Assembly: GCA_023264815.1 (NCBI GenBank)
Contig: JAHFUZ010000010.1
Span: 1-64,000 of the forward strand
Direction: 5' to 3'
Length of the DNA: 64,000 nucleotides
Source: Arthrobacter sp.
Lineage (GTDB): Bacteria; Actinomycetota; Actinomycetes; Actinomycetales; Micrococcaceae
Each line of letters opens with the position of its first letter. Within the stretch, counting starts at the first letter, position 1. Made by a program: the position numbers and the translations under genes. The notes under the pieces were generated by a model that saw nothing but the letters and a program-made list of their open reading frames with translations, was not told the origin of the DNA and made no database searches. Below are positions 24,039 through 41,917 of the stretch, piece by piece.

Positions 24039-24251
24039 TCTAGGGTTGGTTGGGGGAATTCTGGTCTCGCGCTGGTGATGGCGCCCCCGGGGCTGGCCTT
24101 TGACGGCCTTGACTTCTTATTGGCGCCCGGCGGTGGTAGAACCGTTGTCGGGTGGCTGTGGATAACTTTGATCGCTCTGGTGTGACCTGGGCTACCCTTA
24201 AGTCACTGTTCGGAGCGAGGCGTCTTGAAACTATCGGGGGATTAGCTGCCC

Positions 24252-24908
24252 ATGACATCGCACAACTTCTTCACTGGCTGGCGTTTGCCTGCGGCCTTCG
24301 TCGCTGCTGTTGCGGCGGCTGCTTTGACACTCTCAGGCTGCAATGCCGGCGACCCCGGCGGCACCGGCACGCAGTCACCGTCCGCCACTCCGACGTCAAC
24401 GGCCACGCCGACTCCGACGCCGACGGCGACACCTGCCTACGTGCCGGCGTCGGCCAGTGGGCGGGCGCAGAACGTGCCGGTGCCGGTGCTGCCGGAGGTC
24501 GCCAAGACTGAGACGAAGGAAGGTGCCATCGCATTTGCCCGTTACTGGTTCCAGGTCCTTAGCTATTCATACGAAACCGGGGAACTATCGCTTTTTAGGA
24601 ACTTGACCCCTCAAACCTGCGGCCCATGTCAAAAGTCCGCGGAAGTGATTGGCAACTGGCATTCCGAAGGCAGGTGGTTGGTCGGAGGCCAGATCAGTAC
24701 GCCGGTCATCGATTCTACGTTCACCAAAGATGCGGCGGGGAAATACAAGGTCTCTGCCCAAGTTCATCAAGTTCCGCTCTCGTACGTTCGGGCCGACGGA
24801 ACCGTTGCACGTACAGACCCGCAGGATGCGGACCAAGGTAACTTGCTCATCATTTCGTTTGGCTCCGACTCGTGGCAGCTGGATGAAGTGGGAAGCATCG
24901 TTGGCTAG
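24252..24908 (+). CDS. DUF6318-like lipoprotein
   Basis: Signal peptide with lipobox LTLSGC, Thr/Pro linker, then RYWFQVLSYSYETGELSLFRNLTPQTCGPC. Confidence 0.75.
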   Translation: MTSHNFFTGWRLPAAFVAAVAAAALTLSGCNAGDPGGTGTQSPSATPTSTATPTPTPTATPAYVPASASGRAQNVPVPVLPEVAKTETKEGAIAFARYWFQVLSYSYETGELSLFRNLTPQTCGPCQKSAEVIGNWHSEGRWLVGGQISTPVIDSTFTKDAAGKYKVSAQVHQVPLSYVRADGTVARTDPQDADQGNLLIISFGSDSWQLDEVGSIVG

Positions 24909-33569: not shown

Positions 33570-33751
33570 TCACTTTTCGGTGGCTGCCGGCCGGGCAGTT
33601 CTGGTGGAGGCAGCACCGGGCATTCATTCGCCCGCCTTGCGGGCTTGCTTTTCACGCTAGGACATCGCGGCGCCGTTATCAAACCGAAATTCAGCCGGCC
33701 CGGGTGCCCGCGGCCGATGTGCCCATCCGGCCAGGGGACTATCCTGACCGG

Positions 33752-34804
33752 ATGGATATTATTGCGGACGGCACTGCCGCGCCTGAAACCGACATTGCCA
33801 ACCCACAGCTGGAGACGGAAGCCGCGCGGATCCTTCCCCTGGCCGAACTGCATCTGCATATTGAAGGTACGCTGCAGCCCGAGCTGATCTTTGAGCTGGC
33901 CGAACGTCACGGGATCAAGCTTCCGTACTCCGGGCTCGAGGAACTGCGGTCGCTGTACGAGTTCACCGACCTGCAGTCTTTCCTGGACCTGTACTACGCC
34001 AACATGGCGGTGCTGCAGACCGAGCAGGACTTCGCTGACATGACCCGCGCCTACCTGGCCCGGGCGGCCGCCGCCGGGGTCAGGCATGCCGAGATCATGA
34101 TGGACCCGCAGGCCCACATCTCCCGCGGTGTCAGCCTGGAAACCTGCGTCAACGGCGTGGCCTCGGCGCTGGCAACATCCGAGGAAGAGTTTGGCATCTC
34201 CACGCTGCTGATCGCCGCGTTCCTGCGCGACCTGTCCGAGGAGTCGGCACTGGAGGTCCTGGACGGGCTGCTGGCCATGAAGGCACCCATCGCGGCCATT
34301 GGCCTGGATTCAGCCGAGGTGGGCAACCCGCCGGCCAAGTTTGAGCGGCTGTTCGCCAAGGCCCGCGAAGCGGGCCTCCGCCTCACCGCCCACGCGGGCG
34401 AGGAGGGGCCGGCGTCGTACATCATTGAAGCCCTGGACGTGCTGGGAGTGGAACGGATTGACCACGGCATCCGCTGCATGGAGGACGCGGACCTGGTGGA
34501 GCGGCTCGTTGACGAGCGGATTCCGCTGACGGTCTGCCCGCTGTCCAACGTCCGGCTCCGGGCGGTGGATACGATGGCGGACCACCCGTTGCCTGCCATG
34601 CTCGCCGCCGGGCTCAACGTTTCGGTGAATTCTGACGATCCTGCGTACTTCGGCGGCTACGTGGATGACAACTTCGCACAGCTCCAGGCGGTCTTCGAGT
34701 TGTCCGAGTTCGACAGGTCCCGGCTTGCGGCAAACTCCATCCACTCGTCGTTCGCGTCCGAGGAGCGGAAGGCCGAGCTGCTGGACGAGTTGAACAGAGG
34801 CTAG
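33752..34804 (+). CDS. add: Adenosine deaminase-family protein
   Basis: LAELHLHIEGTLQPELIFELAERHGI, TAHAGEEGPASYIIEAL, DHGIRC, NSDDPAYFGG. Confidence 0.9.
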   Translation: MDIIADGTAAPETDIANPQLETEAARILPLAELHLHIEGTLQPELIFELAERHGIKLPYSGLEELRSLYEFTDLQSFLDLYYANMAVLQTEQDFADMTRAYLARAAAAGVRHAEIMMDPQAHISRGVSLETCVNGVASALATSEEEFGISTLLIAAFLRDLSEESALEVLDGLLAMKAPIAAIGLDSAEVGNPPAKFERLFAKAREAGLRLTAHAGEEGPASYIIEALDVLGVERIDHGIRCMEDADLVERLVDERIPLTVCPLSNVRLRAVDTMADHPLPAMLAAGLNVSVNSDDPAYFGGYVDDNFAQLQAVFELSEFDRSRLAANSIHSSFASEERKAELLDELNRG

Positions 34805-35041
34805 CTCGCGCCCGGGGCCCTCGCTACACTGGGCTCAGCGCCTCGGGCACGCGACTGGCGGTGCCCCCGAAAAGCGCCCCAGGGTTGAGTAAACAGCCCG
34901 CCAGACGAGACTCTTGCCTCAGTTCCGGTGTAATCGGCGTCATAGTCGGTCACGACACGCAGAGTTAACCATTTCAAGTCGTGCGATTTAATACGGTGTT
35001 GGCAAGATGCCTAGTGACAGATCGCTTTACTAAGGGGAATC

Positions 35042-35989
35042 ATGGCCAAGTCCACCGCAGAAAACACCTATCTTCGACTCAAAACCGTGCTGGATGTCCT
35101 GACGGAAGGCACCTGGACCGGTGAGGCCCGCAACGCCGGTGAGGTCCTGGCGGAAGCCACGGCCCGCGTGCCGTTCAGCGATCACGAGGCGACCCTGCTC
35201 AGCGGCGGCATTCCCCGCGGCCACAAGACCCTCACCTCCGCCACGGCCAAGCTGGTGAAGGCCGGCTGGCTGGTTAAGGGCCGATCCGGCTGGACCATCA
35301 CCGAGGACGGCATGCGCGCCACCGTCGCCTTCGCTGACGCGGATTCCTTTGCGGGAGCGCTCGACGCCGGGACTCCCGTCCCAGCCGGTACTCCCGTTCC
35401 CGCTGCTCCCGCAGTGAAGAAGGCTCCCGCTAAGGTGGCTGCGGCCAGCAAGGCCACAGGCACCAAAACTGCTGCCGCTGCGTCCGCGGAGGCCCCCGCG
35501 AAAAAGGCACCTGCCAAGAAGGCGCCGGCGAAGAAGGCTGCCGAGGCTGTGGGCAAGGCCGCCAAACTGATCGAGGATGCGGTGGAGCCGGTGGTGAAGG
35601 CCGTCCGTTCACGCAAGGCTGCCGCTTCAAAGGCAAAGGCAGCCGCCGTTGCGGCGGAGCCGCTGGAAGGGCCGGACGAGGAGACCTTCCCGCAGCCCGA
35701 AGCCGTAGCCGTAGCCGGCGACTTCAACACGTTCCTGGGTGCCCCGGAGAACTGGGCCCCGCAGTATGATGAGTCGCAGATGGACTTCGACTTCGGCTCC
35801 CAGCTGTGGACCAAGAGCAGCGAACTGCCGGCCGGCTTCTACACCTTCAAGATCGCCCTGAACCGTTCGTGGAGCGAGAACTACGGCGCGTTCGGAACCT
35901 TCGACGGCCCCAACCACGAACTGCACCACAACGGCGGCACGGTCACCATCCGCTACAACCACCGGACGCGGGACATCACCATCAACTGA
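35042..35989 (+). CDS. Winged-helix (Mrr_N-like) + histone-H1-like linker + pullulanase X25-like domain protein
   Basis: N-terminal wHTH-like region, APAKKAPAKKAPAKKAAE Lys/Ala/Pro segment, C-terminal VAVAGDFNTFLGAPENWAPQYDESQMDFDFGSQLWTKSSELPAGFYTFKIALNRSWSENYG. Confidence 0.75.
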   Translation: MAKSTAENTYLRLKTVLDVLTEGTWTGEARNAGEVLAEATARVPFSDHEATLLSGGIPRGHKTLTSATAKLVKAGWLVKGRSGWTITEDGMRATVAFADADSFAGALDAGTPVPAGTPVPAAPAVKKAPAKVAAASKATGTKTAAAASAEAPAKKAPAKKAPAKKAAEAVGKAAKLIEDAVEPVVKAVRSRKAAASKAKAAAVAAEPLEGPDEETFPQPEAVAVAGDFNTFLGAPENWAPQYDESQMDFDFGSQLWTKSSELPAGFYTFKIALNRSWSENYGAFGTFDGPNHELHHNGGTVTIRYNHRTRDITIN

Positions 35990-36937: not shown

Positions 36938-38159
36938 CGCGCTCCCGCGGCCCTGGCGGGTAGGCATGCCGCCGTCCGGTAAGGATCAGGACGAATGCGA
37001 CGACGGCGGGTACGGCGGCCGCTACGGGGATCAGCGCAGGTCCGGCCAGGGTCAGGGCGGCGGCGCCGAACATCGCTCCGACCGTGATGCCTACCTGGAT
37101 GGTCAGGACCGTCAGGCCGTTCGCGGCGTCCCGGAACTCTCCGCCCGCGCGGAGGATGGCTGACTGGTTGTAGATCCCCACGGCGCCGATGCCGGTGCCC
37201 CACACAAACATCAGGAGCAGGGCTGCCGGGAGGGCAAGGTCGCCGCCGGCCAGGTTTCCGATGGCCAGGCCAGGCAGTACCGTTCCCACCAGCGGGAGCA
37301 GCAACAGCGAGACCACCACGCCGCCCACGGTGAGGAGGTGCCAGCGCCGGGGCCTGGAATCCACTGTGATCCCGGCGATCCAGATGCCCACCAGGCCGGC
37401 AACACCGAGGACGCTGATGGACAGCGGAATGGTGAAATCGGGGAGCCGGACCTCGCGCAGGAACGGGGCGATGTACGTGAACAGGGCAAAGTGCGCCATC
37501 AGCATCAGTGGCCAGCCCACGGCGACGGTCTTGACGCCGGGCTGGCCAATTGCTTTCCGGAGCGACGGGTGCGGGGCATCGGGGATGCGGCGCACCGGGG
37601 GAAGCTGCCACACAGCAAGCAACGCGAGCACCACGCCGGAAGCTGCCAGGACCAGGAACGCCGCCCGCCAGCCGAGGACGTTGCCGAGGGCCGTGCCCAC
37701 GGGAGCGCCGATGGCTAGTCCCAGGCTGTTGCCGCTGAAGACGATGGCCAGGGCCTTGCCCACCTTGTGGGCGGGAACAATCCGGGCCACGAACGGCGCC
37801 ATGGCGGACCACAGCAGGCCGTGGGCGATGCCGCCCACCACCCGTGACCCCATGGCGGCGCCAAAGTCGGAAACGATCGCCACCAGCGCGTTGCTGGCGG
37901 CGAACGTGAGGATCAGGCCGATGAGCAGGAAGTGCCTGGGGATCCGGGCCAGCGCCATGGAAAGCGGGATCACGGTCACCACAATGATGGCCGCATAGCC
38001 CGCCGTCAGGTAGCCGGCCGTCGCTTCCGAGACTTTGAAGTCCGCGCTGATTTGCGGCAGCAGGCCGGACGGGAGAAGTTCGGTGGTGATGGCCGTGAAG
38101 CCGATGGCAGCGAGGACGATCAGTGCGCCGACAGGCAGCTTGTTGGTCTGGGATGTCAC
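36924..38159 (-). CDS. MFS transporter
   Basis: 12-TM-like ORF; 4-bp overlap with the upstream nuclease/helicase gene. Confidence 0.88.
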   Translation of the reverse strand: MTSQTNKLPVGALIVLAAIGFTAITTELLPSGLLPQISADFKVSEATAGYLTAGYAAIIVVTVIPLSMALARIPRHFLLIGLILTFAASNALVAIVSDFGAAMGSRVVGGIAHGLLWSAMAPFVARIVPAHKVGKALAIVFSGNSLGLAIGAPVGTALGNVLGWRAAFLVLAASGVVLALLAVWQLPPVRRIPDAPHPSLRKAIGQPGVKTVAVGWPLMLMAHFALFTYIAPFLREVRLPDFTIPLSISVLGVAGLVGIWIAGITVDSRPRRWHLLTVGGVVVSLLLLPLVGTVLPGLAIGNLAGGDLALPAALLLMFVWGTGIGAVGIYNQSAILRAGGEFRDAANGLTVLTIQVGITVGAMFGAAALTLAGPALIPVAAAVPAVVAFVLILTGRRHAYPPGPRERVSAP

Positions 38160-41100
38160 CTCCTGAACTTACCCTGTTGATGGCCACCTGAGCGTTGACG
38201 GCTACCCGGGCTGAGACCGATGAAGGCGCCAAGCTCCTCGAGTACCGCAGGTTTGGACGGCATGTAGTTGGTGAGTTCGGGTGAACGCACTATCACCGCA
38301 CGCCATTGCCCCCGCGACACAGCCACGTTGATCCGGTTCCGGTTGAGCAGGAACTCTGCACCGCGCGGCGCCTCGGCCACTGCGGAACAGGCCATGGAGA
38401 CCACCACCACCGGCGCCTCCTGGCCCTGGAACTTGTCCACGGTACCCACGCGGACGCCGGCCAGGCCTGCCAGCTGCAGGGACTGCCTGATCAGCTGGAC
38501 CTGGGCGTTGTACGCTGCCACCACCAGGACGTCCTCCGGAGTCAGCGCCCGCGCGGGTTTGTCACCACCGGGAAGCCACTTCAGCCCGATGTGCCGCTGC
38601 GCCTGCCTGACCACTTCGGCGGCTTCCTCCGGGGAGGACGTGGTGTTCCCGCTGTGGGCAACGAAGACTGTTTCGACGCCGGGCGGCAGCTCCGCCAGGC
38701 TCCGGCCCGACGCAGCCGGGGCTGAGTCGAGCTTGCCGTCATAGCTCAGGACAGACACGGCACGGCAGAGGTGGGGGTGCATGCGCCAGCTGTCGGCCAG
38801 GAAGTAGCCGAGGTTCTCCGGCAGCGTGGCATGGCCGGCCGCAAGCCAGCCCAAGGCCGATTCATCCACCGGCTCGGGGTGTGAACCCTGGGTGACCTGC
38901 GGCAGCTGCTGCGGATCCCCCAGGAGCAGGAGCCGCCTGGCTGCGCGGGCAACGGCCAGGGTGTTGGCCAGCGAAAACTGCCCGGCTTCGTCAATGACCA
39001 GCAGGTCCAGCGAGCCTGCAGGGACTGACTTGCCGGTCATGGTCCAGGCGGTGCCGCCCACCAGCGCGCCGCCGGGGGAGCCCAGGAGTGCTGCGACGTC
39101 GTCGTCCTTCTTCCGGTGCCACGGCACGGCAGGGTCGCCCACCACCTTTTTGGCGACTCGGGCAGGGTCCACTCCGGCCGATTCGATGGCCGTGCGCAGC
39201 ATGTTCTCCACCACGGCGTGCGATTGGCCCACCACGCCGATCTTCCAGCCCCGGGCCACGAGCCGGGCAATGACGTGGGAGCCCACGTAGGTTTTGCCCG
39301 TCCCGGGAGGCCCCTGAACGGCCAGGTAGGAGTGGTCGAGGTCCAGCAACGAGGCGGTGATGGCGGCGGCGTAGTCCGGCACGCCTGAGCCGCCGGCCTT
39401 AGTGCTGTTGGTTTCGACGGCGGCGGGTGCCGGCAGGCTCCGGAAACGCGGCGGCAGCTTGCGGAGGATGTCCACGCCGGGATGCTTGGGGAGTTCCGGT
39501 ACGGCGGCGCCCACTCGCTGTGCCAGTTCGGCCAGGGCGGCGTCGATGCTGGCGGTGCGGACCGGCTGGTCCTCGGTGAGAGCCACGGGGATGTGCGGAT
39601 ACGCGGGGACCTTGCCCGTTTCCTTTTCCTCGATGGTGATGATGCTCTGCCCTGGAATCCGGGGGTGGTCCTCCACCGCCGTGACCAGGGTGCCAAAGGT
39701 GAAGCCGCGGCCGGTGACGTTCCCGGCGGAGTCCTCCAGCCCGTCAGGGACCGGCGAATCGTAAACCCGGCACCACGTGCTGCCGGGTTTGAAGTCGGAA
39801 CCTTCGCTCATGGTGCCGGTCAGCCGCAGCGTACGGGTCTGCATACGGGCGGTGGGCTTGGCCAGTGCCCAGTTGGCCACCACCTCGGCGGTGTCCACGA
39901 CGAAAACGTTGCGGTGCTCGGCCCACTGGTCGATCTCGGATTCGGTGCGGTCGAAGTGCTCCCACCAGAACTGCTTCCGTTCGCGCCGGTGGTACCCGGT
40001 GGCGGCTGCCACCATGGCGATGGCTCGTTCGTCGTTGGTCCACGGCCTCGTGTCCGGGACCGTGGCCAGGTACTCCTTGAGCTTGATTTCCCCGGGTGTG
40101 GGCTCGGGTTCCGGGATGCCAGGAACTGGAGGCTGCAGCGGAACCGGTGTGACGTCGTCGTGCGTTCCCGTTGACCCGGCGCCCGAACCCCCGGCGTGGG
40201 TGGCCGTGGAACTGAGAGCCCGCAGCCCCAGCAGCCAGTCGCGGAGGCGGAGGGTTGAGAGGCAGTCGTACTCGTTGTAGTCGGAGATGGAGGCGAGGAT
40301 CCTGGCGGCTTCGGCGGAGTCGCCGCCGTCCCGGGCCGCGCAGTAGGCGGCATAAGCAACAACCGAGGCACCGGCGTCCTTCACGTCGCCCGAGCGAAGG
40401 TTGTCTCCCATGTACAGGGGCTCGAGCTTCTTGATGGAGTAGGACGGCTCGGAAATCCGGAGCGAATGCCGTGCCGTGGCGTAGAGATCCACCAACACCC
40501 CTTCACGGAGCCAGTTGTCCACGATGTCCTCGCCGGCCAGATGGCGGACCGAAAGGTTCCGCAGCGCCGATTTCTCGTACGCGGCGTAGTGGTAGACGTG
40601 CATGTCCGGGTACTGGGAACGGCGTTCCTCCACATAGGCCAGGAAGTCCAGGAAGGCCTGCCTTTCCCCGGACCGTGAGTGCGCCCAGAAGGGACGGAAC
40701 ACCGGTTTGCCTGCAGCAACCGCATCCAGGGCAACAGCCTGCCCGGCACGAGCGTCCTTGTCAGCGACAGATCCGGCAGATCCGGCAGGCGCCTCGATCA
40801 CACCGAAAAGATACTCCAGGCCCCACTGGCTGGTTGCCGGATCCTGCCAGAGCGGATCGCCCTCGAAATCGAAGAAGATGTCTCCCGGGCTGGGCGCCGG
40901 GATGCTGGCCAGGGCGTTCTCCGGCAGGACCTTGAACGTGACAGTGTGGGTTTCGCCGTCCTTGGTGAACGTGCGGGTACCGTCCGGCACGTCACGGCCC
41001 AGCTGCATCCGGGCCTGGTCGCGGAGCCTGGCCAGAGAACCCGTTGCGTTACCCGGCGGAAGGTCAGCCAAGGTGTCGATGGTGGTGATGCCGGCGGCGA

Positions 41101-41917
41101 TGAGCTTCTTGCGCCGGAGCATGCTCATGCCGCCCACCATCAGGAGGTCACGGTGGGCCTGGACCTGTTCGGCGCAATAGTTGCAGCGGCCGCAGCAGGT
41201 GATGCCGGCCTGTTGCCACTGCACCGCCGAGCCGCGTTCCCGGTGCGCAGCCGTCAGGTCCCGGAAACGGTCGCGGCGCTCGCGGAAGACGGGCAGCAGG
41301 TCGGGGAGGGAGTGGTGGCTGCGGACGTAATCCCCGTCCACCACGGCGCCCAGGACAAGGGTGACCCGGGGCGACGGCTCCACGCCCATCCGGATGAGCT
41401 GATCGCCGTAGGCAGCCAGCTGCAGCAGGGCGCCCACCTTGGCGTGCCGGGCGAGTTTGGTGTCCCACACCTCGTAGCGGCCCGGTTTCCCGGTTCCGGC
41501 GGCTTCGTTGACGATGAAGTCCGCATAGCCCAGGAACTCGCCGTCGAAGAAGGTCGCCTGGAAGACGACGTCAGCCCCGGCACTCAGGGCAAGCTCTGTT
41601 TCGGCCTGCTTGGCCTGCAGGCCTCCCCGGGTGGTGTCCCCACGGTCAAGGGAGTAGACGCCGGTGCCGCGGCCCGCATCCCAGGGGCCGTACTTGGCGA
41701 TCAGCCCGGCCAGGACCTTTGCCTCGTGCCTGTCGCCGAGCTTCCCGGCACGGAGCTGCATCTCGTCGTCGGGAAACTGGGCCTTGGGGGAGATGCCGAG
41801 TTTCTCGTCCAGGACACGGAGCGTGCGGTACTCGCACTCGCTGGCAGCCACGAGGTCGCTGGCGGAAAAAACCAGGTCCGGCGGGACGCCGTTGCCGGCA
41901 GGATCGAGCAGGAACAC
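38156..41917 (-). CDS. TM0106-like RecB-family nuclease fused to superfamily I helicase
   Basis: N-terminal RecB-like nuclease (YADFIVNEA...YEVWDTKLARHAK), CCGRCNYC cluster, Walker A VQGPPGTGKTYVGSHV, DEAGQ, VDKFQGQEAPVVVVSM. Confidence 0.88.
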   Translation of the reverse strand: MFLLDPAGNGVPPDLVFSASDLVAASECEYRTLRVLDEKLGISPKAQFPDDEMQLRAGKLGDRHEAKVLAGLIAKYGPWDAGRGTGVYSLDRGDTTRGGLQAKQAETELALSAGADVVFQATFFDGEFLGYADFIVNEAAGTGKPGRYEVWDTKLARHAKVGALLQLAAYGDQLIRMGVEPSPRVTLVLGAVVDGDYVRSHHSLPDLLPVFRERRDRFRDLTAAHRERGSAVQWQQAGITCCGRCNYCAEQVQAHRDLLMVGGMSMLRRKKLIAAGITTIDTLADLPPGNATGSLARLRDQARMQLGRDVPDGTRTFTKDGETHTVTFKVLPENALASIPAPSPGDIFFDFEGDPLWQDPATSQWGLEYLFGVIEAPAGSAGSVADKDARAGQAVALDAVAAGKPVFRPFWAHSRSGERQAFLDFLAYVEERRSQYPDMHVYHYAAYEKSALRNLSVRHLAGEDIVDNWLREGVLVDLYATARHSLRISEPSYSIKKLEPLYMGDNLRSGDVKDAGASVVAYAAYCAARDGGDSAEAARILASISDYNEYDCLSTLRLRDWLLGLRALSSTATHAGGSGAGSTGTHDDVTPVPLQPPVPGIPEPEPTPGEIKLKEYLATVPDTRPWTNDERAIAMVAAATGYHRRERKQFWWEHFDRTESEIDQWAEHRNVFVVDTAEVVANWALAKPTARMQTRTLRLTGTMSEGSDFKPGSTWCRVYDSPVPDGLEDSAGNVTGRGFTFGTLVTAVEDHPRIPGQSIITIEEKETGKVPAYPHIPVALTEDQPVRTASIDAALAELAQRVGAAVPELPKHPGVDILRKLPPRFRSLPAPAAVETNSTKAGGSGVPDYAAAITASLLDLDHSYLAVQGPPGTGKTYVGSHVIARLVARGWKIGVVGQSHAVVENMLRTAIESAGVDPARVAKKVVGDPAVPWHRKKDDDVAALLGSPGGALVGGTAWTMTGKSVPAGSLDLLVIDEAGQFSLANTLAVARAARRLLLLGDPQQLPQVTQGSHPEPVDESALGWLAAGHATLPENLGYFLADSWRMHPHLCRAVSVLSYDGKLDSAPAASGRSLAELPPGVETVFVAHSGNTTSSPEEAAEVVRQAQRHIGLKWLPGGDKPARALTPEDVLVVAAYNAQVQLIRQSLQLAGLAGVRVGTVDKFQGQEAPVVVVSMACSAVAEAPRGAEFLLNRNRINVAVSRGQWRAVIVRSPELTNYMPSKPAVLEELGAFIGLSPGSRQRSGGHQQGKFRR

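Follow-up and report, generated by a model that had tools for sequence, protein, structure and literature searches.

Why would a bacterium couple a DNA-binding-type domain to a starch-binding-type module inside the cell? This question is raised by a gene (35042..35989, + strand) in the window, the 64,000-nucleotide stretch analyzed here, which is contig C6 of a 4.18-Mb Arthrobacter genome. The open reading frame (ORF) of 315 codons starts with an ATG, just downstream of a good ribosome-binding site (AAGGGG), and the GC content at the third codon position is 0.81. The frame is kept across many genera without stops; hence, it is not a chance ORF. The 315-aa product carries an N-terminal winged helix (wHTH, residues 14–93), a linker (residues ~111–212) and a C-terminal X25 module (residues 222–310): the three-part layout proposed in an earlier note on this DNA is real. 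The protein contains no cysteine, and neither a hydrophobic N-terminus nor a signal peptide is seen. The nearest named relative found for the genome is Pseudarthrobacter oxydans USM2, with 75% identity across the entire protein. Most probably, the protein would be a two-headed cytoplasmic binder of DNA and alpha-glucan; tentatively, and judged from sequence, its role would be to hold glycogen to the nucleoid.

The first head (35081..35320, +) can be assigned to the Mrr_N type of winged helix, which gives a name to the wHTH-like sequence recognized earlier. Searched as a domain alone, it matches Pfam PF14338 with E = 2.5e-5 and 24.7 bits, below the cut-off of 29.5 bits; two full-length orthologs pass this cut-off (29.7 and 30.7 bits), and the match is found in 29 of 31 family sequences. 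With hhalign, the N-terminal profile and the Mrr endonuclease encoded in the window genome (L159) align over the full length of the domain (E = 1.1e-4), and a tblastn search with residues 1–103 retrieves an annotated Mrr protein (35%, E = 4e-4). No relative among solved structures was found by profile search. The AlphaFold2 model, built from two sequences, those of the window protein and a single named relative, has a low confidence (pLDDT 56); at this level, the predicted order of elements fits helix-helix-helix-wing, and a Foldseek search with the model gave nothing at E ≤ 0.001. The core of the wHTH is strongly conserved.

Modified foreign DNA is the presumed target of type IV restriction systems that carry Mrr_N domains. 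The domain is common to Mrr and McrB-like proteins and to the window protein, with a collinear homology of ~80 residues, and it is also present at the start of McrB-like AAA+ ATPases of ~717 aa in two related genomes of the same family (L053, 597–2753, −; L054, 886–3036, −), recognized from the translated sequence. This kinship with Mrr and the ATPases is what would make the protein a defence factor sensing modified, e.g., glucosylated, foreign DNA. Such a role seems very improbable, however. Mrr and McrB-like proteins possess an endonuclease or an ATPase domain, whereas the window protein has neither: Pfam gives no match to the Mrr catalytic domain at the C-terminus, and a nuclease or other effector domain was not found. 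PADLOC gives no match either, the phage collection contains no full-length relative, and the stand-alone gene is kept through whole genera instead of being scattered.

The second head (35705..35971, +) is a member of PF22058 (X25_BaPul_like), with E = 1.5e-18 and a score of 67.1 bits (cut-off, 27), so that the resemblance to pullulanase X25 modules noticed earlier is borne out at the sequence level. A profile of 30 orthologous modules matches the X25 part of 2wan, a pullulanase of Bacillus acidopullulyticus (E = 7.7e-13); its match to the X25 pair of Sca5 is weak (7rpy, E = 0.024). With residues 220–313, tblastn retrieves an annotated type I pullulanase. The AlphaFold2 model of this part, based on the same two sequences, is of low confidence (pLDDT 37). 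In the Sca5 pair (7RPY), maltotriose is contacted by W620, K654 and W661 (PMC9112005), with which W238, K270 and W277 align at E = 0.024. These three residues are invariant in all 41 winged-helix-linked modules, as well as in all 27 modules of large amylase-type ORFs. Because of this invariance, glucan binding by the X25 module is considered likely; the same residues may also be of structural importance.

A cysteine pair, corresponding to residues 234 and 242 of the window protein, is kept in 26 of the 27 modules of the large ORFs. Among the 41 winged-helix-linked modules, none has both cysteines and a single one has either. Since disulfides would be expected in extracellular proteins but not in cytoplasmic ones, the loss of the pair, together with the absent signal peptide, fits a relocation into the cytoplasm, where the earlier note had placed the protein. 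With the X25 modules of amylases and pullulanases, Sas20 and Sca5, the module has the family and the aromatic/lysine contact positions in common. In contrast to them, it is single, is attached to a DNA-binding-type domain and has no signal peptide, catalytic domain or cysteine pair.

One module per protein may be too few for a complete site. Single X25 modules of Sca5 alone bind no oligosaccharide, including maltoheptaose, and the pair forms one site (PMC9112005); the activity of the BaPul pullulanase is almost unchanged without X25 (PMC4712565). Furthermore, F228, Q246, H292, E293 and H296 are conserved in the cytoplasmic group only, a sign of a changed surface. All this would suit a module that no longer binds glucan and acts as a protein-protein or oligomerization domain of a DNA-binding protein. 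We regard such a loss as unlikely: the three aligned contact residues are invariant in 41 sequences, and every carrier of the gene possesses a glycogen synthase, as described below. As the Sca5 site is formed by two modules and single ones do not bind, the one-module protein may instead depend on dimerization or on a multivalent ligand, e.g., glycogen. SusF modules are reportedly weak binders.

The full architecture was identified in at least 47 of the 149 Micrococcaceae genomes sampled, belonging to at least ten genera; this count is a lower bound, as the best 15 candidates per genome were scored. It was not found outside the Micrococcaceae in 297 genomes of the order and 396 of the phylum, which confines the taxonomic distribution, a point raised in the earlier note, to one family among the genomes sampled. 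With the N-terminal domain, the 297 genomes of the order yield no more than two matches outside the family, both weak. The ORFs that hold X25 modules elsewhere in the 396 genomes of the phylum range in length from 635 to over 2,000 residues and are read as amylases and pullulanases on the basis of this size and the Pfam family. The closest X25 relatives outside the fusion are modules of such large actinobacterial ORFs, including L002 of this genome. In a tree of 68 modules, one branch separates the 41 winged-helix-linked ones from the others (SH-aLRT 88, based on few columns), which suggests that X25 was joined to the winged helix once.

Two side observations concern X25 modules elsewhere. In the window genome, malQ (G000:C16, 17789–19288) is located ~5 kb from the large amylase-type X25 ORF L002 (near 24229–24597 of the same contig), and similar malQ/X25 pairs are present in two other genus members. 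X25 modules are also encoded in two human-gut records that lack annotation, both labelled 'Bacteriophage sp.' (MT836818.1, 1175–1501, and MT835825.1, 4650–4943); either the starch-binding modules are carried by phages, or the records are bacterial contigs that were misassigned.

The actinobacterial glycogen synthase GlgA (TIGR02149 over the cut-off) is present in 47 of 47 carriers vs. 54 of 102 non-carriers of the wHTH-X25 gene in the 149 Micrococcaceae genomes. Fisher's test gives 1.4e-10 when genomes are counted and 0.030 when genera are counted; genomes are not independent, and the modest genus figure is the one to use for a co-occurrence that is confounded by phylogeny and genome size. Genome size alone is not the explanation, since the large-genome genera g22 and g23, which lack GlgA, also lack the gene. 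The glycogen link proposed in the earlier note is, thus, supported by sequence, through this co-occurrence and the kept maltotriose-contact residues. As the domain pair is confined to glycogen-making members of one family, the stored sugar is possibly linked to the chromosome.

The part between the two heads (35372..35677, +) is a low-complexity Ala/Pro/Lys linker with a net charge of ~+10, whose composition differs between genera. It includes the AKKAPAKKAPAKKA tract (residues 153–166; 35498..35539, +), which is absent, or substituted by acidic sequence, in several genera. The linkers of the orthologs are mostly 31–126 residues long and vary in net charge from +15 to −20, the strongly acidic ones belonging to genus g31, one g18 copy and g30. 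No conserved Lys/Ala/Pro-rich basic domain is present among the orthologs. A histone H1-like tract was hence rejected as a family feature, and the claim that it is a defining part of the protein does not hold. As charge and length vary between genera, the linker is, on its sequence, a tether of free composition with no conserved histone-like part.

The wHTH-X25 gene stands alone. An adenosine deaminase gene (33704–34804) ends 237 bases 5' of the ORF, and a YceI-like gene and an acylphosphatase are located downstream. The neighborhood, to which the earlier note had also drawn attention, is conserved inside the genus only; between genera, the gene order is not kept. An ORF of 1,253 aa (38156–41917, −) is found near the gene in most of the genus, and by eye, its N-terminus is nuclease-like and its C-terminus helicase-like.

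Nearly as likely as a tether, and likewise a possibility short of even odds, is a glucan-responsive transcription regulator. Here, the wHTH, with its strongly conserved core, would sit on operators, and X25 would sense intracellular maltodextrin or glycogen, perhaps via a ligand-bridged dimer. Such dimerization is conceivable because the solved glucan site of 7RPY lies between two X25 modules and is common to both (PMC9112005). Regulation is also suggested by a second wHTH-X25 copy with an acidic linker, found in one genome (L055, 8642–11713), which is transcribed divergently from malQ, a 4-alpha-glucanotransferase gene (GH77, E = 1.1e-111). The malQ association is not a strict one: ten carriers are devoid of malQ. 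The neighbors at the other loci vary between genera and are rarely glucan-related, which speaks against a regulator. In two genus members, the wHTH-X25 gene lies next to GH13 genes; with a dozen GH13 genes per genome, this is close to chance and was not counted.

A further argument for regulation is a conserved element 5' of the gene itself (34939..34973, +), ~70–103 bases before the ATG. It consists of GTCATAGTCGGTCAC followed by GACACGCAGAGTTAACC, a tandem GTCAY-N5-GTCA with GTTAACC, and is present in most genus members and partly in a second genus. The GTCAY-N5-GTCA motif precedes 11 of the 41 orthologs, several of them closely related; the expectation from shuffled sequences is 0.1. The GTCAC repeat is similar to the MtrA box, but its spacing is 10, compared to 11 in the published Streptomyces consensus of MtrA sites (PMC12323332). 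Against a regulator, however, no second perfect copy of the element was found in the genome, and the near-copies inspected are not beside recognizable glucan genes. The wide variation in linker length and charge is a further point against it.

In the tether that we prefer, the Mrr_N-type winged helix would bind DNA and the X25 module would bind alpha-1,4-glucan, glycogen or long maltodextrin, with the flexible linker connecting both heads. Glycogen particles would in this way be held to the nucleoid, and the store would be distributed along the chromosome and divided among the daughter cells. The avidity provided by the many chains of each glycogen particle could offset the single weak X25 module per polypeptide. 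Linkers that are long and variable are more in keeping with a tether than with an allosteric switch. The tether is slightly favored over the regulator by the free linker, the multivalent ligand and the fact that no regulon is visible; arguments for the regulator are the winged helix and the malQ-linked copy. Against the tether, the acidic linkers of several genera indicate that the H1-like tract is not a general DNA-binding part. Moreover, the nucleoid of E. coli is displaced by glycogen condensates (PMC12706056), which means that tethering would be no general rule.

The placement and sharing-out of glycogen in bacteria are hardly known. Polyester and polyphosphate granules are treated in a recent review on organelle positioning, in which glycogen goes unmentioned (PMC13052382). 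No paper describing a wHTH-X25 protein of this kind, nor any report of a regulator with an X25 module as sensor, was found in the open-access literature searched. A conserved protein with a DNA-binding head and a probable alpha-glucan head would make the question of glycogen placement directly testable, and should the regulator be true, X25 would act as a sensor. Furthermore, the protein clearly exemplifies a module of secreted enzymes that has come to live in the cytoplasm, the lost cysteine pair being its footprint. It is conceivable, but on the doubtful side, that we are dealing with the first glycogen-nucleoid tether in bacteria, a counterpart of PhaF in which the starch-binding module of a secreted amylase moved into the cytoplasm and was joined to a restriction-type winged helix.

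The module has a weak profile similarity to the glycogen-binding module of AMPK beta and to the carbohydrate-binding module of SEX4-type glucan phosphatases. Both are small beta-sandwiches that recognize intracellular glucan, as proposed for the window protein, which, however, is of another family and lacks a kinase or phosphatase domain. Known tethers consist of a polymer-binding end and a DNA-binding end: PhaM, PhaF and PhaH tether polyester granules and AlgP polyphosphate, and PhaH indicates that a DNA-binding domain other than a histone-like tail can serve (PMC13052382). The same two ends are proposed for the wHTH-X25 protein, and as in that class, the host makes the polymer, with GlgA in 47 of 47 carriers. 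The K/A/P tract seen in some members is reminiscent of the histone-like domain in PhaF and PhaM, but a histone-like basic tail is not a trait of the family, in which the linker charge ranges from −20 to +15. Moreover, the domains are unrelated to those of PhaF, PhaM, PhaH and AlgP as far as known, their order is reversed, with the DNA end first, and the polymer is another one. If our reading is right, the wHTH-X25 protein would, by analogy, work like the known tethers, yet it is no member of their families.
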